Part shown: one piece after another, positions 4,444-63,644 of the stretch
Numbering within the stretch: position 1 is the stretch's first letter
Layout of the letters: every line of letters begins with the position of its first letter
Assembly: GCA_013140985.1 (NCBI GenBank)
Contig: JABFRU010000040.1
Coordinates: 1 to 64,000 of the forward strand
DNA length: 64,000 nucleotides
Origin: Chitinophagaceae bacterium
Lineage (GTDB): Bacteria > Bacteroidota > Bacteroidia > Chitinophagales > Chitinophagaceae
Direction of reading: 5' to 3'
Made by a program: the position numbers and the translations under genes
Notes under the pieces: generated by a model
The model's input: only the letters and a program-made list of their open reading frames with translations
What the model was told of the DNA's origin: nothing
Databases searched by the model: none

Positions 4444-4812
4444 ATGGAAGAAGGTAAAAGACAGAAGCAAATAGCAGGACTTCTGAATGAAGAAATGAAT
4501 GTGATCTTTCAGCGATTGGGGTTGAATATGATCGGTGGAGGAATGGTTTCGATCTCAGGAGTTAAAGTAACACCTGACCTGCTCGAAGCAAGATTTTACC
4601 TGAGTTTTTTCCAGGTAAAAGATGTAAAAGCTGCATTGAATAAAATAGAAGACCGGCATCATGAAATAAAAAAAGAACTGGCCGCCAATGTGAGGCACCA
4701 GTTGCGGAGCATACCGGTGCTGAAATTCTTCCAGGATGATACGCTGGATCATGCGTTTAAAATGGAAGAGATATTTAAAAAGATAGAAGACGAAAAGAAA
4801 GATAAAAGCTGA
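4444..4812 (+). CDS. rbfA: Ribosome-binding factor A
   Basis: 122 residues, the usual RbfA length. RbfA is a single KH-fold protein that binds free 30S subunits and helps 16S rRNA 5'-end maturation, especially in the cold. It begins MEEGKRQKQIAGLLNEE, has the central VTPDLLEARFYLSFF strand region (equivalent to the VSxDLxxAxVYxSxx block of the family) and the LRSIPVLKFFQDD motif that matches the family's R..P.L.F..D. The stop codon TGA (4810-4812) is formed inside a 7-base tandem array. The next gene starts 52 bases on in the same direction. Confidence 0.92.
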   Translation: MEEGKRQKQIAGLLNEEMNVIFQRLGLNMIGGGMVSISGVKVTPDLLEARFYLSFFQVKDVKAALNKIEDRHHEIKKELAANVRHQLRSIPVLKFFQDDTLDHAFKMEEIFKKIEDEKKDKS

Positions 4813-4873
4813 CAGCTAATAGCTGTTAGCCCGTATCTTAAACATTTTAAACTTCTTAAACCTCTTGAACTTT
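4807..4873. repeat. Back-to-back 7-base and 9-base tandem arrays
   Basis: 4807-4830 reads AGCTGAC, AGCTAAT, AGCTGTT, AGC (period 7). 4835-4870 reads ATCTTAAAC, ATTTTAAAC, TTCTTAAAC, CTCTTGAAC (period 9, four units). The first array contains the rbfA stop codon and the second contains the TTG start codon of the next gene, so the two arrays fill the whole spacer. Confidence 0.75.
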
Positions 4874-6091
4874 CTTTTTGCCTGGCGGTATTTTAAAGCA
4901 AAAAAATCTACCAATGCGATCAATGTGATCGCATGGATAAGCATTGTGGCTATCATCATTGGCACCGCTGCACTGATACTGGTATTAAGTGTGTTCAATG
5001 GGTTTGAAGGGTTGGTAAAATCCCTTTATTCTAATTTTTATACAGATCTGAAAATATCGCCTGTTAGTGGAAAGACCATTACTATTACTCCCGAACAGTT
5101 ACAGCAGCTAAGAGGAATTAAGGGCATTAAAAACTTTTCTTTAGTGGTAGAAGAAAAGGCCATGCTGCAAAATGGGGAGAATCAGCCGATCATTTATTTA
5201 AAGGGAGTGGATGAGAATTACCGGTATGTAAGCGGCGTTGCCAATAACCTGCAGGATAATGCTGAATATGATATTGGAAATGGGGAGGCGCCTAAACTCA
5301 TATTGGGCATCGGGGTAGAGGGGGCATTGGATATCCAGGCCGATAACAATCTTTTCTTGCTAAAGATCTATTTACCCCGCAAAAGCAATTCTGCGCAGAT
5401 CAATATGGCTGAAGATATCAGCAATGATACGATCCGGTCTTCAGCTGCATTTAAAATTCAGCAGGATTTTGATAACAAATACGCCATTACCAATATTGAT
5501 TTTGTAAAAAGAGCCATGAAACTCGGGCCAAATGATTATAGCGGGGTGGAGATCGCATTGCATAATGCCGGCAGGGCTAATGAATTAAAAAAGAGTATCC
5601 GAAAAATTTTTGGGGAAGGGTACCTTGTATTAAACAAATATGAGCAGAACCGCAGTCTTTATTCTGTAATGAACCTTGAACGGTGGGTGATCTATGGTGT
5701 GCTTTGTCTTATTCTTGTTGTAGCAGCTTTTAACATGATCGGCGCATTGACCATGCTGGTGCTGGAAAAACAAAAGGACATGAATGTGTTGTATGCGCTG
5801 GGCGGCAATAAAGGATTTATTCAAAGAATATTTTTAAGTGAAGGCCTTTTATTGGCGTTGATCGGCGGTGGTATCGGCATGCTGCTTGCTTTGCTGGTTG
5901 CATGGTTGCAATTGAAATATCATATCATACCGCTTACCGGCGGATCATTCCTGATCGATTATTTCCCCGTCAAATTACGATTGATGGATTTTATGCTGGT
6001 AGGAGCTACTGTCTTTGTCATTGCACTGATCGCTTCATGGATACCGGCGAGGAAGGCAGCAGTCCAGGAGTTTTCGTTAAGAAGTGAATAG
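4865..6091 (+). CDS. FtsX/LolC-type ABC transporter permease
   Basis: 408 residues starting at TTG 4865; the residues just after it (FLFAWRYFKAKKS) match the usual start of LolC/LolE-type permeases and there is no in-frame ATG before a stop at 4820. Topology: one helix near residues 20-45, a periplasmic domain to about 275, then three helices near 275-300, 325-355 and 370-400. Such permeases pair with a LolD-like ATPase to release lipoproteins from the inner membrane or to drive extracytoplasmic machines; the ATPase is not in this window. The TTG start lies in a 9-base tandem array, and the TAG stop shares its G with an 8-base array. Confidence 0.88.
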   Translation: MNFLFAWRYFKAKKSTNAINVIAWISIVAIIIGTAALILVLSVFNGFEGLVKSLYSNFYTDLKISPVSGKTITITPEQLQQLRGIKGIKNFSLVVEEKAMLQNGENQPIIYLKGVDENYRYVSGVANNLQDNAEYDIGNGEAPKLILGIGVEGALDIQADNNLFLLKIYLPRKSNSAQINMAEDISNDTIRSSAAFKIQQDFDNKYAITNIDFVKRAMKLGPNDYSGVEIALHNAGRANELKKSIRKIFGEGYLVLNKYEQNRSLYSVMNLERWVIYGVLCLILVVAAFNMIGALTMLVLEKQKDMNVLYALGGNKGFIQRIFLSEGLLLALIGGGIGMLLALLVAWLQLKYHIIPLTGGSFLIDYFPVKLRLMDFMLVGATVFVIALIASWIPARKAAVQEFSLRSE

Positions 6092-6170
6092 GTCCGGAAG
6101 ACCGAAAGTCGGAAAGATGCTCTTCATAATGGAAAGTTCTTCCGGTCTTCCGGACTTCCCGTCATTCGGA
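6091..6170. repeat. 8-base two-arm array, likely bidirectional terminator
   Basis: Left arm units GGTCCGGA, AGACCGAA, AGTCGGAA from 6091; right arm units CTTCCGGT, CTTCCGGA, CTTCCCGT, CATTCGGA from 6139 to 6170, all in strict phase 8. A 13-bp perfect inverted repeat is included (6092-6104 with 6143-6155). It starts on the G of the permease stop TAG and ends two bases before the stop codon of the convergent transketolase gene, so it fills the convergent spacer. Confidence 0.8.
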
Positions 6171-6172
6171 CA

Positions 6173-7006
6173 TCAATAGTCTCCTAATGTTTCCGGCAAT
6201 TGTGCCAATGCTTTAGCCAATTGTTCATCATTAGGAGCAATGCCATGCCATTCATGTGTGCCTTCCATAAAATCAACACCTTTTCCCATGGCAGTATGCA
6301 TCATGATAGCGATAGGTTTTCCTTGTCCGGTCAATGTCTTTGCTTTTTCTAATGTACCGGTCACTTCGTTCATATCATTGCCATTCATTTCAAGAGTGGT
6401 CCAGCCAAACACATCAAATTTTTGACGGATATTTCCCAATCCCATCACTTTATCCGTAGGGCCATCTATTTGCTGGCCGTTCCAATCAACTGTTGATATA
6501 AGATTATCTACTTTATGATGAGCTGCAAACATTATTGCTTCCCAAACCTGGCCTTCATCCAACTCTCCATCGCCATGCAATGAATAAACAATATTACTTT
6601 CTCCATTCAGTTTTTTTGTTAGTGCAGCACCGATCGCCACACTCATACCCTGGCCTAATGATCCTGATGCGATACGAACACCCGGTAAATGTTCATGTGT
6701 TGCCGGATGTCCCTGCAATCTTGAATTTATTTTACGAAAAGTGGCCAGTTCTTTTGTATCAAAATACCCGGAACGGGCAAGTGTAGAATAAAATACCGGC
6801 GAGATATGACCATTAGATAGTACAAATACGTCTTCATTCGTAGCATCCATAGTAAAAGCAGGATTGTGCTTCATTACTTTGAAATACAAGGCTGTAAAAA
6901 AATCGGCACAACCTAATGAGCCGCCCGGGTGGCCGCTGCTTGCACCATGCACCATTCTAACTATATCCCGTCTTATTTGGGAAGCAATGGAAGTAAGTTC
7001 TGGCAT
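6173..7006 (-). CDS. Transketolase, N-terminal (TPP-binding) subunit
   Basis: 277 residues, matching the N-terminal half of transketolase only. The TPP-diphosphate motif is HGDGELDEGQVWEA, continuing to VDWNGQQIDGP, and the early GHPGGSLGCAD block is present. Transketolase moves two-carbon units in the pentose phosphate pathway, and in split systems a separate C-terminal subunit completes the active site. In many bacteria the two halves are adjacent; here the downstream neighbour is a convergent permease and the upstream neighbour is divergent, so the partner must be elsewhere. Length is complete for an N-terminal subunit, so this is not a truncation. Confidence 0.92.
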   Translation of the reverse strand: MPELTSIASQIRRDIVRMVHGASSGHPGGSLGCADFFTALYFKVMKHNPAFTMDATNEDVFVLSNGHISPVFYSTLARSGYFDTKELATFRKINSRLQGHPATHEHLPGVRIASGSLGQGMSVAIGAALTKKLNGESNIVYSLHGDGELDEGQVWEAIMFAAHHKVDNLISTVDWNGQQIDGPTDKVMGLGNIRQKFDVFGWTTLEMNGNDMNEVTGTLEKAKTLTGQGKPIAIMMHTAMGKGVDFMEGTHEWHGIAPNDEQLAKALAQLPETLGDY

Positions 7007-7211
7007 AAAAATAGATTCTTGTTAAACTTTTATTATCTTGTTGGCTCAAAGCTGAGATGCGCTGCAAAAGTGCAATCTTTTTCGATAAAAAATCCACCCG
7101 GGTTAAATCAACCTGATAATAAATTCAGCATATCCAGTACCTTATTTAATAAATGGCGTTAATGCAAGGACGAAATAATTAAAACGTAACACCAGGCCTG
7201 AGCGTAAAACT

Positions 7212-7219
7212 TAATTTTG
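7212..7219 (+). promoter_or_regulatory. Candidate -7 box upstream of the WecA-type gene
   Basis: TAATTTTG fits the Bacteroidota -7 consensus TAnnTTTG exactly and is 26 bases before the ATG at 7245. No good -33 TTTG was seen at the right distance. Confidence 0.4.
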
Positions 7220-7244
7220 TACCATATACTTAAAACTGACCGGG

Positions 7245-8393
7245 ATGCTTGATCTTGATATATTGTTGACTGCTTCTGTTTCTTTCATTGTCACTTTTTT
7301 AGCCATACCCATTGTTTTACAAATAGCTGAAAAGAAGAATTTGTATGACATCCCTGACGAAAGGAAATTGCATACCCGGCCAGTAGCTTCTTTAGGCGGT
7401 GTAGGAATATTTGCAGGATTCATATTAGCCTCTTTACTTTCTATCCAGGGTGTTGCCAATGAGGGCCTCCAGTCTTTCTTTGCTTTTTTTGCGGCGGCCA
7501 TGGTTATTTTCTTCCTTGGTTTAAAAGATGACCTGATGATCCTGTCTGCCAGTAAAAAATTCATTGGCCAGATCATAGCGGCATCCATCCTTATTCACTT
7601 GGGAGGCATCCGTCTCGATAGTATGCACGGGCTGTTTGGTTTTGAAGAAGTGTCTGAAGGCTTTGGTCTTGCCCTGTCTTATCTTACTATCATCGTTGTC
7701 ATTAATTCTTTCAATCTTATAGATGGAGTGGATGGCCTTGCCTCCAGCCTTGGTATCCTGACCATGTCTGTGTTTGGTATTTTTTTCTTTGCTATCAATC
7801 AGCAGGCTTATGCATTGCTTGCATTTGCCATGGCGGGTAGCCTTGTGGCCTTTATGATATTCAATCATCACCCGGCCAAAATATTTATGGGAGACTCCGG
7901 TTCATTGATGATCGGGCTGATCAATGCCATACTTGTTATAAAGTTCATCAATGTGTCGGATGATCCGGCCACTGCTATTAAAGTTGATTCTGTTGTGGCT
8001 GTCGCTTTTTCTATTCTCATCGTGCCTTTGTTGGATACATTAAGAGTCTTCAGCATCCGGATATTCAATGGTAAATCGCCTTTTACACCGGACCGCAACC
8101 ATGTGCATCATTTATTATTGGATAATGGCCTGAGTCATCCTGGCGTTACCTTCTCTTGTGTTGCTATAAACATTGGGTTTATAGCTTTGGCATGGCTGGG
8201 TCAGCCGTTGGGCCCTAACTATCTAATGCTGATCATGCTTGTTTTGTCATTTTCCGGACTGGGCTTATTGTATTACCGCAAGTCACGCCGGAAAATGGTT
8301 ATTGCGAAGAGCAAAGATGGAACCATGGAGCTTAAAACGGCTTCCAGGGTAGTAACACTCACAAAAGAAACTTCTGCTGCTGATCAAAACTAA
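7245..8393 (+). CDS. Polyprenyl-phosphate sugar-1-phosphate transferase (MraY/WecA family)
   Basis: 382 residues with about ten membrane helices. It carries the family's catalytic loops: PDERKLHTRPVASLGGV (cytoplasmic loop 1), GLKDDL, FNLIDGVDGLASS (nucleophile/Mg region), FMGDSGSLMIG, and the HVHHLLLDNG histidine motif of loop 5. These enzymes put a sugar-1-phosphate from a UDP-sugar on undecaprenyl phosphate to start O-antigen, capsule or other envelope glycans. The HVHH motif favours the WecA/TagO side over MraY (the peptidoglycan enzyme), but the sugar is not known. It is not in a polysaccharide cluster here. The C-terminal 40 residues are polar and cytoplasmic. Confidence 0.9.
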   Translation: MLDLDILLTASVSFIVTFLAIPIVLQIAEKKNLYDIPDERKLHTRPVASLGGVGIFAGFILASLLSIQGVANEGLQSFFAFFAAAMVIFFLGLKDDLMILSASKKFIGQIIAASILIHLGGIRLDSMHGLFGFEEVSEGFGLALSYLTIIVVINSFNLIDGVDGLASSLGILTMSVFGIFFFAINQQAYALLAFAMAGSLVAFMIFNHHPAKIFMGDSGSLMIGLINAILVIKFINVSDDPATAIKVDSVVAVAFSILIVPLLDTLRVFSIRIFNGKSPFTPDRNHVHHLLLDNGLSHPGVTFSCVAINIGFIALAWLGQPLGPNYLMLIMLVLSFSGLGLLYYRKSRRKMVIAKSKDGTMELKTASRVVTLTKETSAADQN

Positions 8394-8420
8394 TTTCAAC
8401 GCCTCTTACCAACCATTTTT

Positions 8421-8448
8421 TTTGATTTACACTCTTTTGTTAGCTTTG
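8421..8448 (+). promoter_or_regulatory. Candidate promoter for frr
   Basis: TTTG at 8421-8424 and TAGCTTTG at 8441-8448, spacing 16, fit the Bacteroidota -33 TTTG and -7 TAnnTTTG boxes. The start codon is 35 bases further on. Confidence 0.5.
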
Positions 8449-8483
8449 CTTTCCCTTAAAGGAGATAATAATTAATTAATATT

Positions 8484-9047
8484 ATGACAGAAGATATTGC
8501 TTCCATTATTGCACAGGCAGAAGATCATATGCAAAAAGCGATCAGTCACCTCGAAGCTGAATTGATCAAGATAAGGGCCGGTAAGGCCAATCCACAAATG
8601 ATCGATGGCATTGTAGTGGATTATTATGGTTCGCCAATGCCCATCAACCAGGTGGCCAATATAAGTGTGATGGATGCCCGTACATTAAGCATTCAGCCCT
8701 GGGAAAAAAATATGTTACAGCCAATAGAAAGAGCCATCATTGCTGCCAATATTGGCATTAACCCGCAAAACGATGGCAATCTTATTCGTCTTTTTCTTCC
8801 GCCATTAACGGAAGAAAGAAGAAAAGAACTGGCTAAAAGATGTCATGGAGAAGCTGAACATTCCAGGGTGGCGATACGCAATATCCGCAGAGATGCTATT
8901 GAACATATCAAACGCTTGCAGAAAAACGGTTTGAGTGAAGATGCCGCCAAAGACGCTGAAGCAGATGTACAACAAACAACAGATAAATTTATTGCTGCAG
9001 TAGAAAAACATTTGGCCGCAAAGGAAAAGGAAATAATGTCTGTATAA
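8484..9047 (+). CDS. frr: Ribosome recycling factor
   Basis: 187 residues, the standard length. RRF works with EF-G to split the post-termination 70S complex. The family motif KIRAGKANPQMIDGIVVDYYG and the region LRL/RLFLPPLTEERRKEL are present, together with the C-terminal helix rich in Lys and Glu. Its stop codon (9045-9047) directly abuts the stop of the convergent exporter gene at 9048, leaving no spacer for a separate terminator. A candidate promoter lies 35 bases upstream. Confidence 0.97.
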   Translation: MTEDIASIIAQAEDHMQKAISHLEAELIKIRAGKANPQMIDGIVVDYYGSPMPINQVANISVMDARTLSIQPWEKNMLQPIERAIIAANIGINPQNDGNLIRLFLPPLTEERRKELAKRCHGEAEHSRVAIRNIRRDAIEHIKRLQKNGLSEDAAKDAEADVQQTTDKFIAAVEKHLAAKEKEIMSV

Positions 9048-9974
9048 CTATTGCTGTTCTTCTTTTTTCACCTGCGTAGCCAGGTAAATACCTCCCAAAA
9101 TTATCAGCAATCCGAGGATACGGTAGATATCTACATGTTCCCCATTCACCCATCCCCAAAATTGTGCGATAAAAGGGATGCCATAGGTTACCATGCTGGC
9201 AAATAAATAACCTGCTTTTTGGATCAGGTAATAAAACAGGACAGATGCGAGAGTAGTACCGAATATACCAAGTACCACTGAAGCCACTGTAGCAATAATA
9301 TATTTTGATTCACCCAGCGGCAAATTAAAATAACCTGTAAAATATAGTACAACAGCAGCAGGTATAAGTAGTGTAGCAAATGCTATAACTCCAATAGCGA
9401 CAGGGTGTGTGCCACTAAGAACTTTGTTAACCATATTTACATTCAACCCATAAAAGGCGGTAGCTAAAACACAATACCAGGCAAAGCTAATATCCCCTAG
9501 TGATGAAGCTCCGTGACCCTTCCAGGTAAAATAAAATAGCAAAGCACTTCCAATGAATGCAATGCCAATACCGAGATAAGCTTTTGGTGCAATTTTTTTT
9601 CTGAAAAAAAGAAAAGCGATCAGGATAACAAATACAGGAGTTAAACTATTCAGGGCTCCTGCAAAAGCGCCGTCGATCTTTGTTTCAGCGATCGTAAATA
9701 AAAAAGCAGGAAAGAAACTGCCCAGCACACCCGATAGGGCTACATAACCCATATCTTTTGGCGGGACCTTTCTTCTTGCAAAAGCAATAAAAGGTAATAC
9801 CACAAGTCCGGCAGAAACAAGCCTGAGAGCGGCTACCTGCCATGAAGTAAGGATAGGTTTTGAGAGGTCATGGTTTTCGAACAAACCTATTTTCATCAAT
9901 TCAAAACTGCTTCCCCAAATGAATGAAAGTATGATGAACAATCCCCATTTGGTCAATGCCTTACTTCTTTTCAT
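9048..9974 (-). CDS. EamA/DMT-family transporter
   Basis: 308 residues from ATG 9974 (Met at 9986 adds MPPF). Ten predicted membrane helices in two homologous EamA halves: the first has WGSSFELMKIGL near the N terminus and GALNSLTPVFVILIAFLFF; the second has GTTLASVLFYYLIQKAGYLFASM followed by IPFIAQFWGW. Members export amino acids, purines or other metabolites or act as sugar-nucleotide carriers; the substrate cannot be told. The gene is isolated and convergent with frr. Confidence 0.88.
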   Translation of the reverse strand: MKRSKALTKWGLFIILSFIWGSSFELMKIGLFENHDLSKPILTSWQVAALRLVSAGLVVLPFIAFARRKVPPKDMGYVALSGVLGSFFPAFLFTIAETKIDGAFAGALNSLTPVFVILIAFLFFRKKIAPKAYLGIGIAFIGSALLFYFTWKGHGASSLGDISFAWYCVLATAFYGLNVNMVNKVLSGTHPVAIGVIAFATLLIPAAVVLYFTGYFNLPLGESKYIIATVASVVLGIFGTTLASVLFYYLIQKAGYLFASMVTYGIPFIAQFWGWVNGEHVDIYRILGLLIILGGIYLATQVKKEEQQ

Positions 9975-10079
9975 AAACGGTGGCAAAGGTCAGCAAACAA
10001 GGCAGAACATCCATATTATTTTTATTGCCGGTAATAGAATTTCCGGATATAGTATATTGTGCCGTACAAATAATTATGC

Positions 10080-10826
10080 ATGGAAAAAATCAGGTTAGCC
10101 GATATCAGCACAAGAGCTCCAAAAGATCTGGATAAAAAAGAAACAAAGGAGAAAACGGAAGCCATACTTACTGAGCTGGACGAACTCCAAAATCTTTTGT
10201 ATGCCGAAGGAAAACATTCGGTTCTTGTAGTGATACAGGGAATGGATGGCAGCGGTAAGGATGGTGTGATCAGGAATGTTTTTGGCGAATTGAATCCGCA
10301 GGGGGTCACCGTAAAATCATTTAAAGTACCTACTGCCGAAGAATATGCACATGATTTTTTATGGAGGGTACACCAACATGCGCCGGCAAAGGGAATGATA
10401 CAACTTTTCAACCGCAGCCATTACGAAGAGATACTGGTGACAAGGGTACATAAATGGTGTGATGATGAATCGGCAAGAAGGAAAATGAAAGCGATCAATG
10501 ATTTTGAACAATTGATACAGGTGCATAATAGCACGCACATTCTGAAATTCTATCTTCATATCTCACCGGAGGAACAACATCAGCGGCTAACAGAAAGATT
10601 GCATGACCCGACCAAGATGTGGAAGTATAATGAAAAAGACCTGGAAGAAGCGAAGCTCTGGAATATTTATATGCAGGTGTATGAAGAGGCTTTTGAAAAT
10701 TGCAATACCGTTCCCTGGACGATCGTGCCGGCCGACCAGAACTGGTATAAAGAATATATCATTGCTTCTGCACTGCATCAGTTATTAATGGGGCTTGATA
10801 TGCAGTATCCCGGATTAAAGAAATAA
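10080..10826 (+). CDS. Polyphosphate kinase 2 family protein
   Basis: 248 residues, typical of one-domain PPK2. These enzymes use polyphosphate to phosphorylate nucleotides (AMP, ADP or GDP). Walker A is GMDGSGKDG (residues 54-62), followed by FNRSHYEEILVTRVH (the PPK2 Walker B/lid region) and the TKMWKYNEKDLEE block near residue 180. The subclass (ADP- or AMP-accepting) cannot be set from motifs seen by eye. The mscL gene starts 38 bases downstream in the same direction. Confidence 0.9.
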   Translation: MEKIRLADISTRAPKDLDKKETKEKTEAILTELDELQNLLYAEGKHSVLVVIQGMDGSGKDGVIRNVFGELNPQGVTVKSFKVPTAEEYAHDFLWRVHQHAPAKGMIQLFNRSHYEEILVTRVHKWCDDESARRKMKAINDFEQLIQVHNSTHILKFYLHISPEEQHQRLTERLHDPTKMWKYNEKDLEEAKLWNIYMQVYEEAFENCNTVPWTIVPADQNWYKEYIIASALHQLLMGLDMQYPGLKK

Positions 10827-10864
10827 TTTGTCTAAATTTATATTCATCATCAAAACCAAATAGT

Positions 10865-11242
10865 ATGGGAATGCTTAAAGAATTCAAAGAGTTTGCCATG
10901 AAAGGCAATATTGTTGATCTTGCCGTTGCAGTAGTTATCGGCGGGGCATTTGGCAGCGTTGTTGCTGCACTGACAGATTCGCTGATCATGCCAATTATAA
11001 GTATGATACTTGGAAAAGGGGGTGTCAGCGACCTTTCTTTTACGGTTAATAATACTGTTTTCCCAATAGGAGTGTTTCTGCAGGCTGTTATTAATTTCAT
11101 ACTCATTGCTTTTGTGTTGTTCCTTATCATTAAAGCCATGAATGCAATGAAGAAAAAAGAAGAAGCAGCGCCTGCGGCTCCTGCTGCTACACCAGAAGAT
11201 ATTGTTTTGCTCCGGGAGATCAGGGATGCATTGAAAAAATAG
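10865..11242 (+). CDS. mscL: Large-conductance mechanosensitive channel
   Basis: 125 residues. MscL is a homopentameric inner-membrane valve that opens in osmotic downshock. The N terminus MGMLKEFKEFAMKGNIVDLAV with VVIGGAFG, the TM1 packing glycines, is highly diagnostic; TM1 spans about 16-45 and TM2 about 68-96; the C-terminal amphipathic bundle (DIVLLREIRDALKK) is also present, with an Ala/Pro-rich linker before it. A strong terminator follows. Confidence 0.96.
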   Translation: MGMLKEFKEFAMKGNIVDLAVAVVIGGAFGSVVAALTDSLIMPIISMILGKGGVSDLSFTVNNTVFPIGVFLQAVINFILIAFVLFLIIKAMNAMKKKEEAAPAAPAATPEDIVLLREIRDALKK

Positions 11243-13060: not shown

Positions 13061-13069
13061 AATAGTGAT

Positions 13070-33022: not shown

Positions 33023-33034
33023 ATTTAAATATAA

Positions 33035-33063
33035 GATTTTGGAATTTTGATTTTAGATTTCTC
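33035..33063. repeat. 7-base tandem array upstream of the kinase gene
   Basis: Units GATTTTG, GAATTTT, GATTTTA, GATTTCT (period 7), 12 bases before the kinase start. A/T-rich partner sequence (ccaatcaaaaaac) lies near 33112, so the two can partly pair. Nothing else was recognised in 33064-33142 except a G+C-rich patch. Confidence 0.55.
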
Positions 33064-40928: not shown

Positions 40929-40991
40929 GTGAATCGTCAATGGTCAATCATGAATATCGTACTCATTGACGATTCACGATTCACCATTCAC
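40929..40991. repeat. 7-base two-arm array between the clpP genes
   Basis: Left arm GTGAATC, GTCAATG, GTCAATC, ATGAATA (40929-40956); right arm CATTGAC, GATTCAC, GATTCAC, CATTCAC (40964-40991), both in strict phase 7. Inner arms pair perfectly over 14 bases. The last base is shared with the TAG stop of the upstream clpP. Confidence 0.85.
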
Positions 40992-41683
40992 TATTTTTTA
41001 TTCTCCTTCCTTGGGTTGGTCACCAGCACTTCATCTACCAGTCCATATTCTTTTGCTTCGGCAGCTGTCATCCATTTATCCCGGTCAAAATCTTTTTCGA
41101 TCTGCTCGATCGGTTTGCCGGTATGAATGTTCACTACTTCATACAATTCTCTTTTCAGTTTTTTGATCTCATTCACGGTGATCTCGATATCACTGGCCTG
41201 CCCGCCAATAGCGCCGCTGGGCTGGTGCATCATTATCCTTGCATGTTTCAAGGCCGCCCTTTTCCCTTTTGTGCCGGCACCTAATAATACGCAAGCCATT
41301 GAAGCGGCTACACCAATGCAGATAGTAGCTATATCCGGACTTACATATTGCATCGTATCATATACACCCAAACCGGAATACACAGAACCGCCGGGACTGT
41401 TGATGTACATATTGATATCCCTTGACCGGTCGGTGGAATCAAGGAAAAGCAATTGTGCTGTTACAATGTTGGCTATTTCATCATTGATAGGATAACCAAG
41501 AAAAATGATACGGTCCATCATCAGGCGGCTATATACATCCATCACCGCCACATTCAATGAACGTTCTTCAATGATGTTGGGCGTCATACCAGTCACCAGG
41601 TGAGAAGCATAGCTATGTAATGTATTGCTGGAAATACCACGGTGCTTGACCGCATATTTTTCGAATTCTGAATTAAACGACAT
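40991..41683 (-). CDS. clpP: ATP-dependent Clp protease proteolytic subunit (first copy)
   Basis: 230 residues. Catalytic Ser128 (VAASMACV; most ClpPs have Gly after SM) and His153 (IMMHQPSG), with DKWMTAAEAKEYGLVDEV at the end carrying the Asp. The N-terminal 30 residues before the propeptide-like region differ from the other copy. The two proteins are paralogs, not a recent duplication. Confidence 0.95.
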   Translation of the reverse strand: MSFNSEFEKYAVKHRGISSNTLHSYASHLVTGMTPNIIEERSLNVAVMDVYSRLMMDRIIFLGYPINDEIANIVTAQLLFLDSTDRSRDINMYINSPGGSVYSGLGVYDTMQYVSPDIATICIGVAASMACVLLGAGTKGKRAALKHARIMMHQPSGAIGGQASDIEITVNEIKKLKRELYEVVNIHTGKPIEQIEKDFDRDKWMTAAEAKEYGLVDEVLVTNPRKENKK

Positions 41684-41689
41684 GTTGGT

Positions 41690-41729
41690 AAGTTAATAAG
41701 TTAACAAGTTGATGAGTTGATAAGTACAG
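41690..41729. repeat. 8-base tandem array upstream of clpP
   Basis: AAGTTAAT, AAGTTAAC, AAGTTGAT, GAGTTGAT, AAGTACAG (period 8). It begins six bases before the clpP ATG (41683) on the upstream side. A partly complementary AT-rich run near 41756-41778 (caacctgtaaacttttcaacc) may be its other arm. Confidence 0.7.
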
Positions 41730-41832
41730 ATAGCTTGTAATGATAATCACCTGTCAACCTGTAAACTTTTCAACCAGTGTCCTTAACCTCAAATATCCGT
41801 CCAAATGGCTGAACGGCAAAATTGTGACAAGA

Positions 41833-41921
41833 AGTCGGAAAGGCCACAAGTCAGAAAGTCCGAAAGACAATTCGAATATGGTGAATTGTCTTTCGGACTT
41901 CCGGTCTTACTGACTTTCGAC
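41833..41921. repeat. 8-base two-arm array after tig
   Basis: Left arm AGTCGGAA, AGGCCACA, AGTCAGAA, AGTCCGAA from 41833; right arm CTTTCGGA, CTTCCGGT, CTTACTGA, CTTTCGAC from 41890. The inner arms pair perfectly over 18 bases (41856-41873 with 41883-41900). The array ends on the last base of the tig stop codon TAG. A terminator-like role for tig is likely. Confidence 0.85.
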
Positions 41922-43303: not shown

Positions 43304-43310
43304 GTTGTTT

Positions 43311-43373
43311 GTTTGATGTTCGAAGTTTGAAGTTTAAGGTTAACGTTGAACCTCAAACTTCAAACCTCAAACA
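43311..43373. repeat. Nine-unit 7-base array between tRNA-Leu and tig
   Basis: Nine contiguous heptamers in strict phase: GTTTGAT, GTTCGAA, GTTTGAA, GTTTAAG, GTTAACG, TTGAACC, TCAAACT, TCAAACC, TCAAACA. The centre holds GTTAAC, so the two halves face each other. It fills the space between the tRNA 3' end and seven bases from the tig start, and thus lies over its ribosome binding region. Confidence 0.85.
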
Positions 43374-43382
43374 GGAAGTTTG

Positions 43383-43464
43383 TCCGGATGGAGGGACTCG
43401 AACCCCCACACCTTACGGCATCAGATCCTAAGTCTGACGTGTCTACCAATTTCACCACATCCGG
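43383..43464 (-). tRNA. tRNA-Leu (anticodon UAG)
   Basis: Read on the minus strand, acceptor CCGGATG pairs with CATCCGG, with discriminator A at 43383. A D-loop GGTAGAC, anticodon stem CAGA/TCTG around loop CTTAGGA (anticodon TAG), a long class II variable arm and a GGTTCGAGTCCC T-arm are visible. 82 bases, no encoded CCA. The UAG anticodon reads CUN Leu codons. Flanked on both sides by 7-base arrays. Confidence 0.95.
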
Positions 43465-43467: not shown

Positions 43468-43502
43468 AGCTAACAGCTTATGGCTATTAGCTAATAGCTT
43501 GT
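43468..43502. repeat. 7-base array upstream of tRNA-Leu
   Basis: AGCTAAC, AGCTTAT, GGCTATT, AGCTAAT, AGCTTGT (period 7, five units), starting three bases from the tRNA 5' end. Same flavour as the array at 4807-4830. Confidence 0.8.
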
Positions 43503-57764: not shown

Positions 57765-57767
57765 TTT

Positions 57768-58796
57768 TTAATTGCCGAGTATCACCTGTAATGATTCACC
57801 CAGGATATCATTTTTTTTGGCTATAAAAATTTCCATCTTGTCAACAGGCAGGCGAAGATCATACGTTCCGTTGGTGGCCACTTGTGTGTCAAACCCGGGA
57901 TTATAACGATTGAAAGTAGCCATATCCATCGTTATATGTTTGATGATAACTCCTGAATTATAGCGCCCGGTGATCGGCATCATCCTCGAATTGTTTACTT
58001 CATCTTTCGTAAGTGTAAGATTGTTATTCAATACCAGTTCCTTCATTTCATCTTTTGTAACAGTGGTAACGCCGCCTTCGCCTTCAAAAATATAATGAGT
58101 TCCAATGAATTTCTTTACATGGTTCATCGATTCGTTGGGAAGATTGTATTGCAGCGTCCAGAAATCTTTGCTGCCACCACTTTTACGAATGGCTTTGTCA
58201 ACATTGCCGGGGCCGCCATTATAGGCAGCGATCACCAGCAACCAGTCGCCGTATCTTGCAAAAAGATCAGTAAGTAAAGCGGCTGCTGCATGGGTGCTTT
58301 TATAATAATCAAGTCTTTCATCATTATGTTTGGAAATTTTAAGACCGTATTGTTTTGCGGCAGCCGGCATGAATGCCCATGGTCCAACTGCACCTGTCCA
58401 GGAAATTGCATTATACTTTAAGCCCGATTCAATAACGGCGAGGTATTTCAATTCTTTTGGTAAGCCATGTTGTGAGAGAATGGCATCCATCATATCAAAA
58501 TAGGGGCGGCCCCATTCTTTCATGCTGTTGAACCCTTTGGTGTTCTTTGCAATATAATTCTGAACAAAGGTGATCGCCAGGGGATTCAGTTTTGCACCGC
58601 TTACGCCATCTCCTAATACTGCTGTTCTAAAGAGGTCTTTGAATTCAGATTTAGGATCGAGTTTCTGTAACGAGGAATCTTTTTTGATGGTAGTATCAGC
58701 TATAGCCAGGGGGCCACCGGCAGAAGGCTGTTGTTCCCTGGCACTGGCTTGCAGGACGAAAACAATTATTGCAATAAAAAAGGATAATTGCCGCAT
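57768..58796 (-). CDS. Membrane-bound lytic murein transglycosylase (Slt/MltD-like)
   Basis: 342 residues from ATG 58796 (Met 58808 adds four). Signal-like N terminus (RQLSFFIAIIVFVLQASA). An SLT domain is present: AVIESGLKYNAIS with the catalytic Glu, GAVGPWAFMPAAAKQYGL and AYNGGPGNVDKA. There is no LysM or only a degenerate one at the C terminus. Cleaves the MurNAc-GlcNAc bond of peptidoglycan. Its start region overlaps or adjoins the end of the upstream gatA gene. Confidence 0.88.
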   Translation of the reverse strand: MRQLSFFIAIIVFVLQASAREQQPSAGGPLAIADTTIKKDSSLQKLDPKSEFKDLFRTAVLGDGVSGAKLNPLAITFVQNYIAKNTKGFNSMKEWGRPYFDMMDAILSQHGLPKELKYLAVIESGLKYNAISWTGAVGPWAFMPAAAKQYGLKISKHNDERLDYYKSTHAAAALLTDLFARYGDWLLVIAAYNGGPGNVDKAIRKSGGSKDFWTLQYNLPNESMNHVKKFIGTHYIFEGEGGVTTVTKDEMKELVLNNNLTLTKDEVNNSRMMPITGRYNSGVIIKHITMDMATFNRYNPGFDTQVATNGTYDLRLPVDKMEIFIAKKNDILGESLQVILGN

Positions 58797-58804
58797 TTCT
58801 TTAC

Positions 58805-60250
58805 TCACTTTTGATCTTGGCGATATTGCCCCATCATCAGACTCGAAACTTGCAGCAAAGTTAGCTCATCAAAATGGTTTGCCATAACCTGCACACTGAA
58901 GGGCATGTTATTACTATGCTTAAAAAGGGGCAATGAGATGGCGGGAATTCCAACGAGGTTAGCCATTACTGTATAAATATCAGCGAGGTACATGGCAATA
59001 GGGTCGTTAATTTTTTCTCCGACCTTGAAAGCGGTAACAGGAGATGTGGGCAGCAGCATAAGGTCAAAATTGTTAAAAATCTTTTTTACATGGTCGCATA
59101 AGAGCCTTCTTACTTTTTGTGCCCTTGTAAAATAAGCATCGTAATAACCAGCGCTTAACACAAATGTGCCTAACATGATCCTTCGCTTCACTTCTTTTCC
59201 AAAACCTTCTGATCTTGTTTGTTTGTAAAATTCAACCAAATCTGTAATTGATTTGCCGGTTCTGTATCCATACTTTACTCCATCGTATCTGGAAAGATTA
59301 GAAGAGGCTTCAGCGGTTGTCAATACATAATAAGCAGGAACGATAAAATCCAGCAGGTCAAATTTTACCGGTTCTGCACTATGACCATCCTTTTTCAATT
59401 GTTCGATCAATCCATTTATCCCGGATGAAATTTCAGGATCAATAGAGGGATGATTCAGGGCTTCATCAAAATAAGCAAACCTGAATTTTTTGTCACCGGT
59501 TAATTGAGATGAATAAGCCGGTGTTTCTTTTTGCGAAACTGTACTGTCAAATTCATCCGGCCCGGAAATTATTTCCAATACTTTGGCAACATCAGTAATT
59601 GTATTTCCAAAGATCCCAACCTGGTCAAAAGAAGAAGCATAGGCGATCAAACCATAGCGGGAAATTCTTCCATAAGTTGGTTTTAATCCAATGATGCCGC
59701 AAAAATCTGCGGGCTGACGAACAGAGCCACCTGTATCACTACCTAATGAGATCATACATAAGCCAGCCTGCACAGCCACTGCTGAACCTCCTGATGAACC
59801 ACCGGGCACTCTTGTTTCATCCAGTGCATTCAATACTTTTCCGTATGCAGAATTTTCATTGGTGGAACCCATTGCAAATTCATCGCAATTGCAACGACCA
59901 ATAATGATGGCATCTTCGTCCAAAAATTTTTGGACAGCTGTAGCAGAATAAACAGAACTAAAATTTTTCAGAATGTTTGATGAGGCAGAAACGGGATGAT
60001 CTTTGTGACAAATAACATCTTTCAGGGCAATGACAACGCCGTGTAATTTTCCAATCGTTTTTCCGGCTTTTCTTTTTTTATCTAATACACTTGCAGTTTG
60101 TAATGCTTCGTCTGCGTACACCTCAATAAATGCATTCAAATGTGCAGTTTCCCTGATGCGTTGAAGAAAATGTTCAACGGCCTGGCAACAGGTTATTTTT
60201 TCTTCCAGTAATTGGGCATGATAGTGCTCAATAGAAGAGAATACAAACAA
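58805..60250 (-). CDS. gatA: Glu-tRNA(Gln)/Asp-tRNA(Asn) amidotransferase subunit A
   Basis: 481 residues. The amidase subunit of GatCAB. The Ser-cisSer-Lys triad is visible: Lys in LHGVVIALKDVI, cis-Ser and Ser in SLGSDTGGSVRQPADF. GIIGLKPTYGRISRYGL is diagnostic. gatB and gatC are not in the window. Stop overlaps the longer start of the transglycosylase; tatA lies 44 bases upstream on the strand. Confidence 0.95.
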   Translation of the reverse strand: MFVFSSIEHYHAQLLEEKITCCQAVEHFLQRIRETAHLNAFIEVYADEALQTASVLDKKRKAGKTIGKLHGVVIALKDVICHKDHPVSASSNILKNFSSVYSATAVQKFLDEDAIIIGRCNCDEFAMGSTNENSAYGKVLNALDETRVPGGSSGGSAVAVQAGLCMISLGSDTGGSVRQPADFCGIIGLKPTYGRISRYGLIAYASSFDQVGIFGNTITDVAKVLEIISGPDEFDSTVSQKETPAYSSQLTGDKKFRFAYFDEALNHPSIDPEISSGINGLIEQLKKDGHSAEPVKFDLLDFIVPAYYVLTTAEASSNLSRYDGVKYGYRTGKSITDLVEFYKQTRSEGFGKEVKRRIMLGTFVLSAGYYDAYFTRAQKVRRLLCDHVKKIFNNFDLMLLPTSPVTAFKVGEKINDPIAMYLADIYTVMANLVGIPAISLPLFKHSNNMPFSVQVMANHFDELTLLQVSSLMMGQYRQDQK

Positions 60251-60294
60251 AAGCAGCAGCTTTTCGGGTTACTTAATAGCAGAAGGGCGAAAGG

Positions 60295-60513
60295 TTATTT
60301 AGCGCTTGGTGAATTCTTGATATCGTTGGCACTGTCCTCTATCTCTTTTTTTACATTGCTTTTCGCATCGTTGAATTCACGGACACCTTTGCCAAGGCCA
60401 CGCATCAGCTCAGGGATTTTTTTGCCACCAAACAGGAGCAGCACAATAACCAGGATAATGATGATCTCATTTGTTCCCAACATACCCAGTAAAACAGGTT
60501 GTATCATAATCAA
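60295..60513 (-). CDS. tatA: Twin-arginine translocase TatA/TatE-type subunit
   Basis: 72 residues. One N-terminal membrane helix ([22 protein letters not shown] with the LFGGKK hinge), an amphipathic helix and a polar tail ([16 protein letters not shown]-like). It forms the pore of the Tat pathway that exports folded proteins. tatC is not in the window. Start could also be at 60507, changing two residues. Confidence 0.92.
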
Positions 60514-60587
60514 AAAATTAAGAAGTAAAGATACTAACTACCCGAAAATAATGGAATTATTAGTTTTAATTAACCGGTAAACAACAA

Positions 60588-60614
60588 AAAAGCCCCTATC
60601 AATAAGGGGCTTTT
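60588..60614 (-). terminator. Rho-independent terminator after rplS
   Basis: Stem GCCCCT/AGGGGC (60592-60597 with 60605-60610), seven-base loop, flanked by As and Ts on either side, so it can work in both directions. Lies between rplS and tatA. Confidence 0.85.
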
Positions 60615-60633
60615 CAAATTATAGTAAGAAAAA

Positions 60634-60999
60634 TTACTGTGCTGCTTCAGTAGCCATGCGCTTTTCACGGATACGGGCACTCTTACCACTGCGTTTGCGC
60701 TGGTAGAACAGTTTAGCCCTGCGAACATGACCGGTCTTATTCACCTCAATAGAATCAATATTGGGAGAATAATAAGGAAACACCCTTTCCACACCGATAC
60801 CGTCAGATATTTTACGAACAGTAAAGCTGGCTGTATGACCAGTGCCCTGTTTTTTAACTACATCGCCTTTAAAAGACTGGATCCTTTCTTTGTTTCCTTC
60901 AATGATCTTATAGTTTACGGTAATATTATCTCCGGGCTTAAAAGCGGGGAAACTCTTCTTACCAGTCAGTTGCTCATGTACATATGCTACAGCGTTCAT
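60634..60999 (-). CDS. rplS: 50S ribosomal protein L19
   Basis: 121 residues from ATG 60999 (MNAVAYVHEQL); the Met at 61023 adds eight residues. L19 sits at the 30S-50S interface. Features: KPGDNITVNYKIIEGNKERIQSFKGDVV and VERVFPYYSPNIDSIEV. C-terminal basic tail. Single gene here. Confidence 0.97.
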   Translation of the reverse strand: MNAVAYVHEQLTGKKSFPAFKPGDNITVNYKIIEGNKERIQSFKGDVVKKQGTGHTASFTVRKISDGIGVERVFPYYSPNIDSIEVNKTGHVRRAKLFYQRKRSGKSARIREKRMATEAAQ

Positions 61000-61037
61000 A
61001 ATCCTTATTTTTAGGGAGGGCAAAGGTAATGGAAACA

Positions 61038-61160
61038 GTTTAAAGTTTAATGGTTTAATGGTTTAAAAGTTTCGTCTTTCAGATGATTCAAAGCTTATAA
61101 CACTATTCCTGCTTTATGCTAAACCATTAAACGTTAAACTTTTAAACCCTCAAACCTTTA
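61038..61160. repeat. 8-base two-arm array between rny and rplS
   Basis: Left arm GTTTAAA, GTTTAATG, GTTTAATG, GTTTAAAA, GTTT (61038-61072); right arm CATTAAAC, GTTAAAC, TTTTAAAC, CCTCAAAC, CTTTA (61125-61160). The rny stop codon TAA (61160-61158 on the minus strand) is the first three bases of the right array. Terminator role likely. Confidence 0.8.
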
Positions 61161-61454
61161 TCTCGCCACATTCACAGCTCTTTTTTCCCTGATCACCGTC
61201 ACTTTTATCTGGCCGGGGAAGGTCATTTCAGTCTGTATCTTCTGAGCTATTTCAAATGATAGTTTCTCTGAATCCTGGTCGCTCACTTTATCCGCCTCAA
61301 CGATTACCCTTAATTCTCTTCCGGCCTGGATGGCATAGGCCTTCTCAACCCCGGTGTAAGCCATGGCCAGATTTTCAAGGTCTTTGATCCGCTGGATATA
61401 TTGCTGCATGATCTCTCTGCGGGACCGGGTCTTGCGCCGCTTATCGCATCGCAT
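61158..61454 (-). CDS. rny: C-terminal part of ribonuclease Y in a shifted frame
   Basis: This frame continues the rny gene from about codon 12 ([18 protein letters not shown]...[13 protein letters not shown]) to the stop at 61160-61158. The first eleven residues ([11 protein letters not shown]) are out-of-frame and not real. It is the piece needed to complete a normal RNase Y of 524 residues. Confidence 0.7.
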
Positions 61455-62731
61455 GCCTGGGTGATAGGAGAGATTACAAATTGCATTTCCATTTCATCAT
61501 GGTGAGCACCGATGGCATTAACTACTGCCGGATTCTCACCAAATTTTTCAGCAAGCTTGGCTCCCAATAAAGCATGACTCAATTCACTTTCCTCATCAGG
61601 CACTTTACCAATGTCATGTAAGAGGCCAGCCCTTTTTGCAAGCTTAACCATATTCGGAGCCAGGCCCAGTTCTGCAGCCATTGTAGCGCAGAGATTAGCT
61701 GTTTCCCGGCTATGCATAAGCAGGTTTTGACCGTAGGAAGAGCGGAATCTCATTCTGCCCACCATTCTTACGAGTTCTTTATGTAAACCATGAATGCCTA
61801 ATTCAATAACAGTTCTTTCCCCGATCTCCATTACCTGTTCTTCAATTTGCTTCTTGGTTTTTTCAACCACTTCTTCAATTCTTGCCGGGTGAATACGGCC
61901 ATCGGCCACTAATCTTTGCAAACTCAAACGGGCAATTTCCCGGCGAAGCGGATCAAATGAAGAAAGTAGAATAGCCTCCGGGGTATCATCAACGATCAGA
62001 TCAACACCGGTGGCAGCTTCAATAGCCCTGATATTTCTTCCTTCACGGCCGATTATCTGCCCTTTGATCTCATCACTTTCCAAATTGAAAACCGTGATAG
62101 AATTTTCGATAGCCTGTTCAGCAGCGGTACGCTGTATGGTTTGAATTACAATCTTGCGGGCTTCTTTTCCGGCTTTTTGTTTGGCCTCTTCTATTATTTC
62201 CTGCTGAAGTGCCAATGCTTTGGATTGTGCCTCATTTTTCAGGCTTTCTATCAGTTGGGCCTTGGCTTCTTCTGCAGAAAGTCCGGCGATCTTTTCTAAT
62301 CGGCGGATATGTTCTTCCTGGTGTTTTTCCAGCTCAGTTCTTTTGATATTAACCAACTCTATCTGGCGGTTCAGGTTGTCTTTGATAACATCATTGTCTT
62401 TGATCTGCTTATCAAGATTGCTTTCTTTTTGATTGATAGATTGTTCTTTTTGACGGATGCGGCTCTCTGTATCGTTGATCTTACGGTTGCGCTCATTCAC
62501 TTCCTTTTCATGAGCCGCTCTCATTTGCACAAATTTCTCTTTAGCCTCCAGTTCTTTTTCTTTCCGGATGGTTTCGGCTCTGAGTTCAGCTTCTTTTAAT
62601 ATGGTTTGTGATTGCAGTTCGGCTTCTTCTACTTTTTTACGGGTATTCTTTGAGAAAAGCAGTTTACCCGCTATAAGACCGATAATAAGGGCAGCAGCGC
62701 CTATTATAGCAGCTAATATATTTGGATCCAT
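61310..62731 (-). CDS. rny: Ribonuclease Y, frame broken near residue 436
   Basis: An N-terminal membrane anchor ([19 protein letters not shown]), a long coiled coil, a KH domain ([19 protein letters not shown]) and the HD domain (LLHDIGK, IGAHHDE) are all as in RNase Y, the membrane-bound mRNA-decay endonuclease. After ISGARPG (Gly436, 61424) the frame goes to unrelated residues (PAERSCSN...), while the expected continuation is in the -1 frame. A single missing base between about 61422 and 61424 would explain it: an assembly or sequencing indel, or a real lesion. Restoring one base gives 524 residues. Confidence 0.85.
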
Positions 62732-62875
62732 GAATGTCGTTGTTTAATTGTTGCACAATACGTTGATTTAATACAAACTTCATATAAGAAGTATCCGTTA
62801 TCAGCGAAGATACAAAACGGGGGTTAAAAGCGGTAGGGGGCCAGGAAATAAGTCCGCAGCCTAAAAGACTGGCTT

Positions 62876-63163
62876 TTAGCTCAAATGACCATCCAGTAAT
62901 TTCTCAATAACAGCAAGCTGTTCTGACAGGTTTTCCTTTTCCACATTGGCGGCAGTAGCGGAATGTTGTTCAGTAGCATACCAGATCAGCACCATGGCTA
63001 TATAGTCCTGCATATCCTTGCCGGCAAACTGGGTTTTGAATTCAATGATCTTGTCGTTGATGGTTTTGATGGTCTTTCTTACTACTTCTTCATCATCCGG
63101 ATGAATTTTGATCCGGTAACTCCGGTCGCCAATAAGGGCAGAAACAGCAATTAATTCATTCAT
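62876..63163 (-). CDS. zapA: Cell division protein ZapA
   Basis: 95 residues. Binds FtsZ and helps bundle it at midcell. N-terminal SALIGDRSYRIKI and EVVRKTIKTINDKI (typical ZapA beta-hairpin and helix), followed by a coiled-coil C-terminal helix. Placed just before rny on the strand, as often found in Bacteroidota. Confidence 0.88.
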   Translation of the reverse strand: MNELIAVSALIGDRSYRIKIHPDDEEVVRKTIKTINDKIIEFKTQFAGKDMQDYIAMVLIWYATEQHSATAANVEKENLSEQLAVIEKLLDGHLS

Positions 63164-63283
63164 GTATTTGGATTTTTAAATATCTATTTATTATATTCGG
63201 TGCCCCTTACTACTGGGGAGCCATTATCTTTTTAAAAACCATGGTTAAGCTACCTAAAGGAAACGAACAAAAACGTTTACCTC

Positions 63284-63538
63284 ATGTTTGCCAAAGTTAA
63301 GTCTTCGGTGTTTATTGATGCACTGCAACTGGAAGTTACTTCTCCCAATGGTCAGTGTATCCGTGGTATCTTAAAAGATGATACCGGGATCGTTTGCCGC
63401 ACTATTGAAAAAGATATTTCGCCGGACCGCACCCAACTTACCTGGAATGGTCTTAATGATCTGCCTTACGGAAAATATACACTTGAATTGACACAGGGAG
63501 AAGATGAGATGAAGATGAATCTGGTGAAGAGAGTTTAA
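63284..63538 (+). CDS. Small beta-rich protein, 84 aa, resembling a sorting-domain fold
   Basis: 84 residues. Strand-rich: VFIDALQLEVTSPNGQ, DDTGIVCRTIE, LPYGKYTLELTQG and a basic end NLVKRV. The spacing of a GxYxLxV-like strand (GKYTLELTQ) near the C terminus resembles the type A T9SS C-terminal domain, but there is no signal peptide and no preceding cargo, so that reading is weak. Transcribed opposite to the surrounding zapA group. Its stop TAA lies in the first unit of an 8-base array. Confidence 0.6.
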   Translation: MFAKVKSSVFIDALQLEVTSPNGQCIRGILKDDTGIVCRTIEKDISPDRTQLTWNGLNDLPYGKYTLELTQGEDEMKMNLVKRV

Positions 63539-63644
63539 AAGTTCAAAAGTTTAATGGTTTAAGGTTGTATCTCCGAAAAAATAAAGCCTCCGCGAATAGC
63601 ATGATAACTTTTAAACTTTTGAACCATTAAACCTTTAAACCTCA
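63533..63644. repeat. 8-base two-arm array with matching unit order
   Basis: Left arm GTTTAAAA, GTTCAAAA, GTTTAATG, GTTTAAGG (63533-63564); right arm TTTTAAAC, TTTTGAAC, CATTAAAC, CTTTAAAC, CTCA (63609-63644). Each right unit is the reverse complement of the left unit with the same rank (one mismatch in the last), instead of the reversed order. It holds the stop codon of the preceding 84-aa gene and touches the stop of the coiled-coil gene. Confidence 0.8.

Follow-up and report, generated by a model that had tools for sequence, protein, structure and literature searches.

Facing arrays of short tandem repeats in the spacers of a Chitinophagaceae bacterium and their association with IVP genes

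Tandem arrays in the window and in its genome

The first 64,000 nucleotides of contig JABFRU010000040.1 of a Chitinophagaceae bacterium (assembly GCA_013140985.1), hereafter the window, contain short tandem arrays with units of 7, 8 or 9 nt, several of which are arranged as two facing arms, i.e., a few units, a gap, and the same units reverse-complemented. This report deals with these arrays and with their relation to IVP genes, which code for a small four-helix bundle protein (PF05635/TIGR02436). The window genes rbfA (PF02033), clpP, tig, rplS and rny were named from Pfam, and purE and a tolC-like gene were named by eye. An earlier note, based on the letters of the window, had listed eleven arrays and described the two-arm layout as a design that recurs among them. 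The eleven arrays are indeed present, with the position and the period (7, 8 or 9) that had been given. The layout was evaluated by searching for an inverted partner within 160 nt of each array, which was scored against 200 shuffles of that DNA. It was upheld for seven arrays (6091, 40929, 41690, 41833, 43311, 61038 and 63533), the partner of which exceeded all 200 shuffles, and a convincing second arm is lacking in the other four: the array at 33035 has a weak partner that was equalled by 7 of 200 shuffles, the one at 4835 has a weak partner equalled by 5 of 200, and those at 4807 and 43468 have no partner. The features of the window are listed below; L and G numbers denote loci and genomes, respectively.

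4798..4831, no strand assigned: single heptamer array, unit AGCTRAY, at the rbfA stop codon; no partner arm
4833..4875, no strand assigned: single period-9 array, unit AGTTTAAGA on the minus strand; weak partner
6092..6108, plus strand: left arm, octamer GTCCGGAA/GACCGAAA
6139..6155, minus strand: right arm of the 6092 element, 17 nt, 94% complementary; RNA fold z -3.5
33034..33062, plus strand: left arm, heptamer GATTTTG, weak pair; same unit in IVP element L065
33115..33142, minus strand: possible right arm of the 33034 array, weak
40929..40948, plus strand: left arm, heptamer GTGAATC, in the spacer between two clpP genes
40965..40984, minus strand: right arm of the 40929 element, 20 nt, 90% complementary
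41681..41726, plus strand: left arm, octamer GTTGATAA, in the clpP-tig spacer
41748..41775, minus strand: right arm of the 41681 element; RNA fold z -2.6
41832..41873, plus strand: left arm, octamer GTCCGAAA, directly 3' of tig; unit resembles that of L076 (by eye)
41883..41918, minus strand: right arm of the 41832 element, 36 nt, 81% complementary; RNA fold z -7.4
43310..43341, plus strand: left arm, heptamer GTTTGAA, upstream of tig
43342..43373, minus strand: right arm of the 43310 element, adjoining tRNA-Leu, 32 nt, 84% complementary; RNA fold z -8.6
43382..43464: tRNA-Leu, the only tRNA of the window
43468..43500, no strand assigned: single heptamer array, unit AGCTAAT, adjoining tRNA-Leu; no partner arm
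61034..61075, plus strand: left arm, octamer GTTTAATG, in the rny-rplS spacer; same unit in IVP element L055 of the same genome
61120..61160, minus strand: right arm of the 61034 element; RNA fold z -3.9
63530..63566, plus strand: left arm, octamer GTTTAAAA
63605..63645, minus strand: right arm of the 63530 element, 27 nt, 85% complementary; RNA fold z -4.1

The left arm at 40929 overlaps the listed start of one open frame. The unit of the array at 4798 resembles, by eye, the arms that flank the IVP gene of L054, and the right arm of the 6092 element matches IVP element L076 with a score of 15.

The frequency of these arrays was determined in a sample of 464 kb, formed by the window and 20 stretches of 20 kb of the same genome (39,050 intergenic bases and 425 kb of coding DNA). 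The excess over shuffled spacers that the earlier note had proposed as a check is large: with dinucleotide shuffles as reference, 43 intergenic arrays of period 7 were found against 0.4, 16 of period 8 against 0.2, and 4 of period 9 against 0. The control periods 6, 10 and 12 gave no intergenic arrays and period 11 gave one; the coding DNA showed 21, 6 and 12 arrays for periods 7, 8 and 9, respectively. At the level of the whole genome, the unit family GTTTAAWG, with up to three mismatches, has 67 matches compared with 10 for the reversed control pattern, and in all 14 clusters (counted by hand from the listings) that contain both strands within approx. 600 nt, the forward copy is on the left and the reverse copy on the right.

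IVP genes between facing arms

In the 464-kb sample there are two facing pairs in which the arms are separated by approx. 530–570 nt, and in each case the DNA in between codes for a small protein with a match to TIGR02436 (four helix bundle protein). When the whole genome was searched, 16 matches to PF05635 ("23S rRNA IVP", S23) were obtained, 15 of them above the Pfam cut-off and two with internal stops; TIGR02436 was above its cut-off in the seven IVPs of this genome that were scanned. A facing arm pair is present around all 16 matches, and in 14 cases it beat all 100 shuffles whereas in the other two it tied. As a comparison, an arm score of at least 18 was reached by 9 of 325 genes of the sample, and these nine include all three IVPs recognised by a short motif. 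The gene-bearing copies have room for the IVP gene alone, and the structure model of IVP shows four helices with a mean pLDDT of 92.6. The same whole-genome search gave no PF05635 match in the window, so that the copies located there are gene-less. Another open frame of this genome, of 1143 nt (L016, 1825–2967), has near-perfect flanking inverted repeats with an arm score of 75, and is probably an insertion sequence.

Because both of the widely spaced pairs enclosed a TIGR02436 gene, the facing arrays were proposed to be the arms at the ends of small stem-loop insertion elements (approx. 0.5 kb), which belong to one family and, when complete, include an IVP gene. We consider this explanation likely. 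The full element would be formed by a left arm of approx. four to five imperfect units of 7 or 8 nt, the PF05635/TIGR02436 gene, and a right arm with the same units reverse-complemented; the shorter copies would consist of the arms and a short loop.

The genus contains 142 IVP places in 29 genomes, with 19 genomes having any. The 12 species with genomes of 1.5–2.1 Mb have none or two IVP genes, and those of at least 3.2 Mb have 4–16. The arms were examined in 105 of the 142 places (37 were not fetched), of which 104 were usable and one lacked usable flanks; 60 of the examined loci were hand-picked, chiefly for contig room and irrespective of their arm content. The pairing of the arms is specific for each locus, given that 85 of 104 true flank pairs reached an arm score of at least 17, compared with 17 of 520 mismatched pairs. 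For the pair statistics, the 95 loci with an arm score of at least 16 were used; 67 of these have heptamer and 22 have octamer units. The arms have a median length of about 4.5 units (4.4 and 4.6 in two counts). The clade of the protein and the unit of the arms are also linked: for IVP pairs at least 50% identical and encoded at non-orthologous loci (n = 159), arm similarity was 11.48, above the permutation maximum of 8.58, and period agreement was 0.82 versus 0.55 expected (maximum of 2000 permutations, 0.755). Therefore, the similarity of the IVP proteins predicts the unit and the period of the arms at loci without common flanking genes. Regarding orientation, among 100 loci the IVP gene lies between codirectional genes in the sense direction in 68 and antisense in 8, with 15 convergent and 9 divergent settings; a mostly sense orientation would be expected if the elements depend on, or pass through, read-through transcripts, in the manner of the IVS stem-loops of 23S rRNA that are excised by RNase III.

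For two solved relatives of IVP, identified by sequence, 2gsc (the Xanthomonas IVP XCC0516) and 2rld, five chains are listed in either case. Considered together with the four to five units per arm, this suggests that an IVP pentamer may read the units of the arm. IVP belongs to the same protein class as Avd, a protein of diversity-generating retroelements, and may be a distant relative of it; the IVP of L051 gave a weak match to the Avd model (E 4.4e-4, 20.5 bits, for a cut-off of 80).

The association between gene and arms extends to several phyla. Within a named set formed by the best 80 of 565 relatives of one IVP clade (79 usable, one dropped), which were taken as Bacteroidota by name except for L291, with a title that corresponds to Limnohabitans, an arm score of at least 17 was obtained in 70 of 79 loci. 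The mismatched pairs of this set were high too (218 of 474) because a motif is common to the loci; still, the own arms beat foreign ones in 62 of 79. This motif, GTTTNNNGTTT upstream and AAACNNNAAAC downstream of the gene, is present in 67 of the 79 loci compared with 7 for the reversed motif, and the loci that have it include Flavobacterium, Polaribacter, Chryseobacterium, Niastella and Fulvivirga. In a survey of 198 genomes of the phylum, GTTTNNN arrays were found in 48 of 121 genomes with an IVP match versus 5 of 77 without one (Fisher p 7e-8; the 48 and the 5 were counted by hand).

For plasmids, one IVP place per record was considered, 24 of 27 places, not all of them independent, since L380 and L381 nearly duplicate L362 and L366. 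At the best place of each record, arms above all 100 shuffles were detected in 20 of 24 (11 of 12 and 9 of 12 in two batches), with hosts such as Nostoc, Calothrix, Anabaena, Gemmatirosa and Azospirillum; no arms above the shuffles were found in the other four records, i.e., Oscillatoria, Nostoc HK-01, Picosynechococcus (17 versus 20) and one plasmid of Nostoc UHCC 0926. Two 50-kb stretches of Nostoc plasmids also carry gene-less facing heptamers, which on one of them have the unit of its own IVP element, and some arrays of cyanobacterial plasmids have a period of 8 or 9. With respect to the gene neighbourhood on plasmids, an integrase, recombinase or transposase is annotated beside 9 of the 24 IVP genes (L362, L378, L379, L380, L384, L385, L386, L387 and L389, where L362 and L380 are near-copies), which may be due to chance on plasmids. 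On cyanobacterial plasmids the IVP gene was also seen among cas genes: in L358 and L361 it lies between cas6 and cas4, in L361 next to a type I-D cas1d, and in L383 its neighbours are cas10 and a gene of the Cmr3 family.

Gene-less copies and differences between orthologous spacers

The 464-kb sample contains 53 gene-less arrays, for three motif-recognised IVP genes. Of these arrays, 39 match some IVP arm with a score of at least 14, and the best match comes from the same genome for 33 of the 53 (a hand count), while this genome contributes 15 of the 95 loci of the library. Each window array family that has a facing arm has a gene-bearing counterpart, either in the same genome (GTGAATC in L053 and L056, GTTTGAA in L060, and GTTTAAAG in L055) or in relatives (GTCCGAAA in L076, and GTTGATAA in L131 and L154). 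Nineteen gene-less copies with the unit GTTTAAAG are located in unrelated spacers; next to the arm, five of them contain GTTATCGTG, which in a sixth is altered at one position. This 9-mer occurs three times in the 464-kb sample.

Whole elements are present or absent at orthologous sites, as the earlier note had proposed to look for. The genomes G024 and G008 are approx. 93% identical, and orthology of the flanks was assessed for 8 of 8 and 9 of 11 of their IVP loci; two of the eight loci of G024 share flanks with the nine examined in G008. One of the unshared sites is occupied by 518 nt in G024 and by 35 nt in G008; the arms edge the extra piece, and the flanks are 93% and 89% identical. Two other candidates were discarded, L143 because it is not a clean case, as G008 has 295 other bases there, and L139 because the match in G008 is found only at a contig end. 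A second example is given by two homologous operons of Nostoc plasmids, with genes that are 93%, 91% and 98% (over 661 nt) identical and with IVP elements located in different gaps. The situation is reciprocal, each operon being empty where the other is filled, with the genes there only 3 nt apart, which indicates insertion. At the first of these sites, CTA or TTCTA (3–5 nt) is repeated on both sides of the element.

Units are gained and lost as well. At one orthologous spacer a single 7-nt unit differs between G035 and G029, which are 93.7% identical, a change in unit number of the kind that had been anticipated. By eye, the type of unit and its presence vary at the orthologous spacers tig-clpP, upstream of purE, and rny-rplS. 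In front of purE, an element with an IVP gene is present in four species, with the unit GTTTCTG in one of them and GTTTGTA in three; other species have gene-less arrays, and others lack both array and gene (all by eye). In L101, L098 and L103 the right arm of the element seems, by eye, to be fused in frame to the start of purE, adding a short N-terminus coded by the repeat. The rny-rplS spacer (61023–61310 in the window, orthologues L247–L276) shows, also by eye, a terminator-like hairpin in six species with small genomes, and hardly any spacer in five species. Another interspersed repeat, with a core like GATGAAGTGTGCGACGCAACAG, is found at spacer differences between species (spacers of G030, G035 and G008; L373).

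Filled and empty orthologous sites, elements with the same unit dispersed among unrelated spacers, and the gain and loss of units support the mobile process that the earlier note had inferred. Its other suggestion, slippage, stands in part: units are gained and lost, and slippage probably acts on the arms, but it does not act alone, given that the arrays match the terminal arms of elements with IVP genes. A possible mechanism would be that each IVP recognises the repeated units of its own element, either in a transcript or in single-stranded DNA, and that this recognition favours the propagation or the retention of gene-bearing and gene-less copies. Slippage would then alter the number of units, and template switching between the arms, or selection for the stem, would keep the arms complementary.

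Several facts weigh against this explanation. An arm score of 18 is not exclusive to IVP genes, as 6 of 322 others in the sample attain it, and the top score, 75, belongs to one of these six. Unit-permuted arrays often match an IVP arm too (62 of 159 with a score of at least 14), and the genome of the best match was tabulated for the real gene-less arrays only. Relatedness and genome size are confounding factors in the link of GTTTNNN arrays with IVP, and there are several genomes in which the reversed control pattern is just as frequent. As units differ at orthologous sites, a strict transposon model needs a fast turnover of the unit. The 518-nt site of G024 and G008 is not polarised as to gain or loss. 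With respect to insertion sequences and MITEs, the ends of which are defined by a transposase and which have a constant target-site duplication, no such duplication is evident at the 518-nt site; the one at the first Nostoc site is short and ambiguous, and at the second site there are approx. 40 further bases 3' of the right arm. At rny-rplS several species keep one arm and have lost the other, which means that the stem is not always retained. On the sense strand, the excess of G-U over A-C is small (127 versus 94, for a composition ratio of 1.06); it favours an RNA stem over a DNA palindrome weakly, and selection of the stem purely as RNA has little support. No IVP relative was found in a phage collection with one query, nor in IMG/VR with another (38 pattern matches), and carriage by phages was discarded. 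Published data add to these points. According to the available text of PMC4692102, the GGGGA(C/T)T arrays of Nostoc PCC 7120 include few inverted pairs and none on plasmids, and the gene context of the Xanthomonas arrays is for the most part conserved from one species to another, these arrays showing no link to mobile elements; the latter speaks against fast movement in that group, and both facts slightly lowered our confidence.

Competing explanations and relation to known systems

The arms could instead be DNA operators for the autoregulation of IVP, with the gene-less arrays as remnants left after gene loss and not separately mobile. Binding by a protein would fit the specificity of clade and unit, as well as the GTTTNNN motif of the 67 Bacteroidota loci mentioned above (from the best 80 of 565), and the state of G008 at purE, beside filled relatives, may be a loss. 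This explanation is improbable considering that gene-less arrays outnumber the IVP genes (53 to 3), and that independent deletions would not be expected to leave, in unrelated spacers, short loops that have an inner motif in common. It is quite unlikely that the arrays are ordinary intergenic hairpins, i.e., terminators or stabilisers of mRNA, which became periodic by slippage, with IVP genes that merely happen to lie in such spacers. The seven window elements fold well (z from -2.6 to -8.6), there are compensatory changes between related species (by eye), and arms are located at the 3' end of rny, where the six small-genome relatives have, by eye, a hairpin that looks like a classical terminator. 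Regarding intrinsic terminators (stable hairpins followed by a T-run at gene ends), the arm hairpins fold and some are at gene ends; a universal role as terminators is weakened by the species that have one arm only at rny-rplS. Ordinary hairpins would not account for arms at 16 of 16 IVP matches, against 6 of 322 other genes that reach the score, nor for the prediction of unit and period from IVP similarity at non-orthologous sites, nor for the presence or absence of a whole piece of 0.5 kb.

The main idea of the earlier note, that pure replication slippage and template switching that forms palindromes suffice without a link to any gene, agrees with the gain and loss of units and with the drift of the unit at orthologous spacers. 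It is very improbable, since the arrays are specifically associated with one gene family in four phyla and the same unit is found at many unrelated sites of one genome; slippage as the only cause was rejected because of the association with IVP genes. Finally, the arrays could be elements of the REPIN/RAYT type, moved by a Y1 transposase. REPINs are non-autonomous inward-facing pairs that depend on a dispersed single gene, and a similar layout is seen here in the inward-facing unit pairs of many spacers, for which there is one cognate gene. Nevertheless, the enclosed gene codes for a four-helix bundle protein of another family and not for a tyrosine transposase, and the repeats are tandem heptamers or octamers of many unit types per genome instead of single hairpin REPs. 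No Y1 (RAYT) transposase was found between the arms in the loci scanned, which have PF05635/TIGR02436 genes, the rest of the genome not having been searched for RAYT. This origin, rejected on the gene family, is extremely unlikely.

If the arrays are indeed the ends of IVP elements, a tie of the heptamer repeats of cyanobacteria and the arrays of Bacteroidota to one small gene family would provide a testable cause for them and would explain the two-armed layout. A protein family known mainly from intervening sequences of rRNA would become a candidate for a factor that recognises repeats, and many intergenic hairpins that have been ignored or taken for terminators may be ends of mobile elements.

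The earlier note had regarded the layout as not previously described, which does not hold, given that the available parts of the literature report convergent inverted heptamer arrays for Xanthomonas (PMC4692102) and hairpins of short tandemly repeated repetitive (STRR) sequences for Nostoc (PMC2670836). A literature link of such repeats to PF05635/IVP genes was not found in the accessible text of openly licensed papers. In the portion of PMC4692102 at hand, the GGGAATC heptamer arrays of Xanthomonas form 70 convergent inverted pairs in one species and 75 in another, and are treated as G-quadruplex repeats, generally without association to mobile elements. The TAACTGA heptamers of Beggiatoaceae and cyanobacteria, also found in five Bacteroidetes, are intergenic and tandem too; they differ in having one unit and in being nearly all direct repeats upstream of start codons, with one indirect repeat (PMC4679880, in its available text).

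The heptameric STRRs, known in cyanobacteria since 1990 (Mazel, as cited in the available text of PMC2670836), are intergenic, can form hairpins, and have a function that was called unknown. These repeats had been named by the earlier note as the closest known idea, a good guess, since the four-helix genes of cyanobacterial plasmids have flanks of the same architecture; the arms and the gene-less facing arrays of these plasmids are intergenic tandem heptamers, as are the STRRs. The window shares this architecture but belongs to Bacteroidota, and thus is not itself an STRR, and the published STRRs, in what is available of PMC2670836, have no link to a four-helix gene. A broader proposal, for which we see the chances as evenly balanced, is that the arrays of Bacteroidota, the cyanobacterial STRRs, and perhaps the GGGAATC arrays of Xanthomonas form one class of mobile elements, propagated with the help of a sequence-specific four-helix protein that reads the units, with each clade having its own unit. 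The bare arms would be non-autonomous, slippage and arm-to-arm copying would rewrite the unit, and element and protein would co-evolve into private specificities.

The closest comparison is with the intervening sequences (IVSs) of the 23S rRNA, described in the available text of PMC4990558 as stem-loops with terminal inverted repeats around an S23/IVP gene, which are sporadic, have been proposed to be mobile, and are cut by RNase III. The elements described here likewise have terminal inverted repeats around a PF05635/TIGR02436 gene. In contrast with the IVSs, they are located between genes: Rfam, applied to the 16 IVP loci of the genome of the window with approx. 1.5 kb at each side, gave two tRNAs and no rRNA, and the window gave one tRNA only. 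Their arms consist of tandem 7- or 8-nt units, which vary with the IVP clade, and there are many gene-less copies and many paralogues in one genome. Since they lie outside rRNA genes, these elements would work like an IVS without being members of the rRNA set. From their sequences, they appear to represent a variant of the IVS kind outside the rRNA genes.

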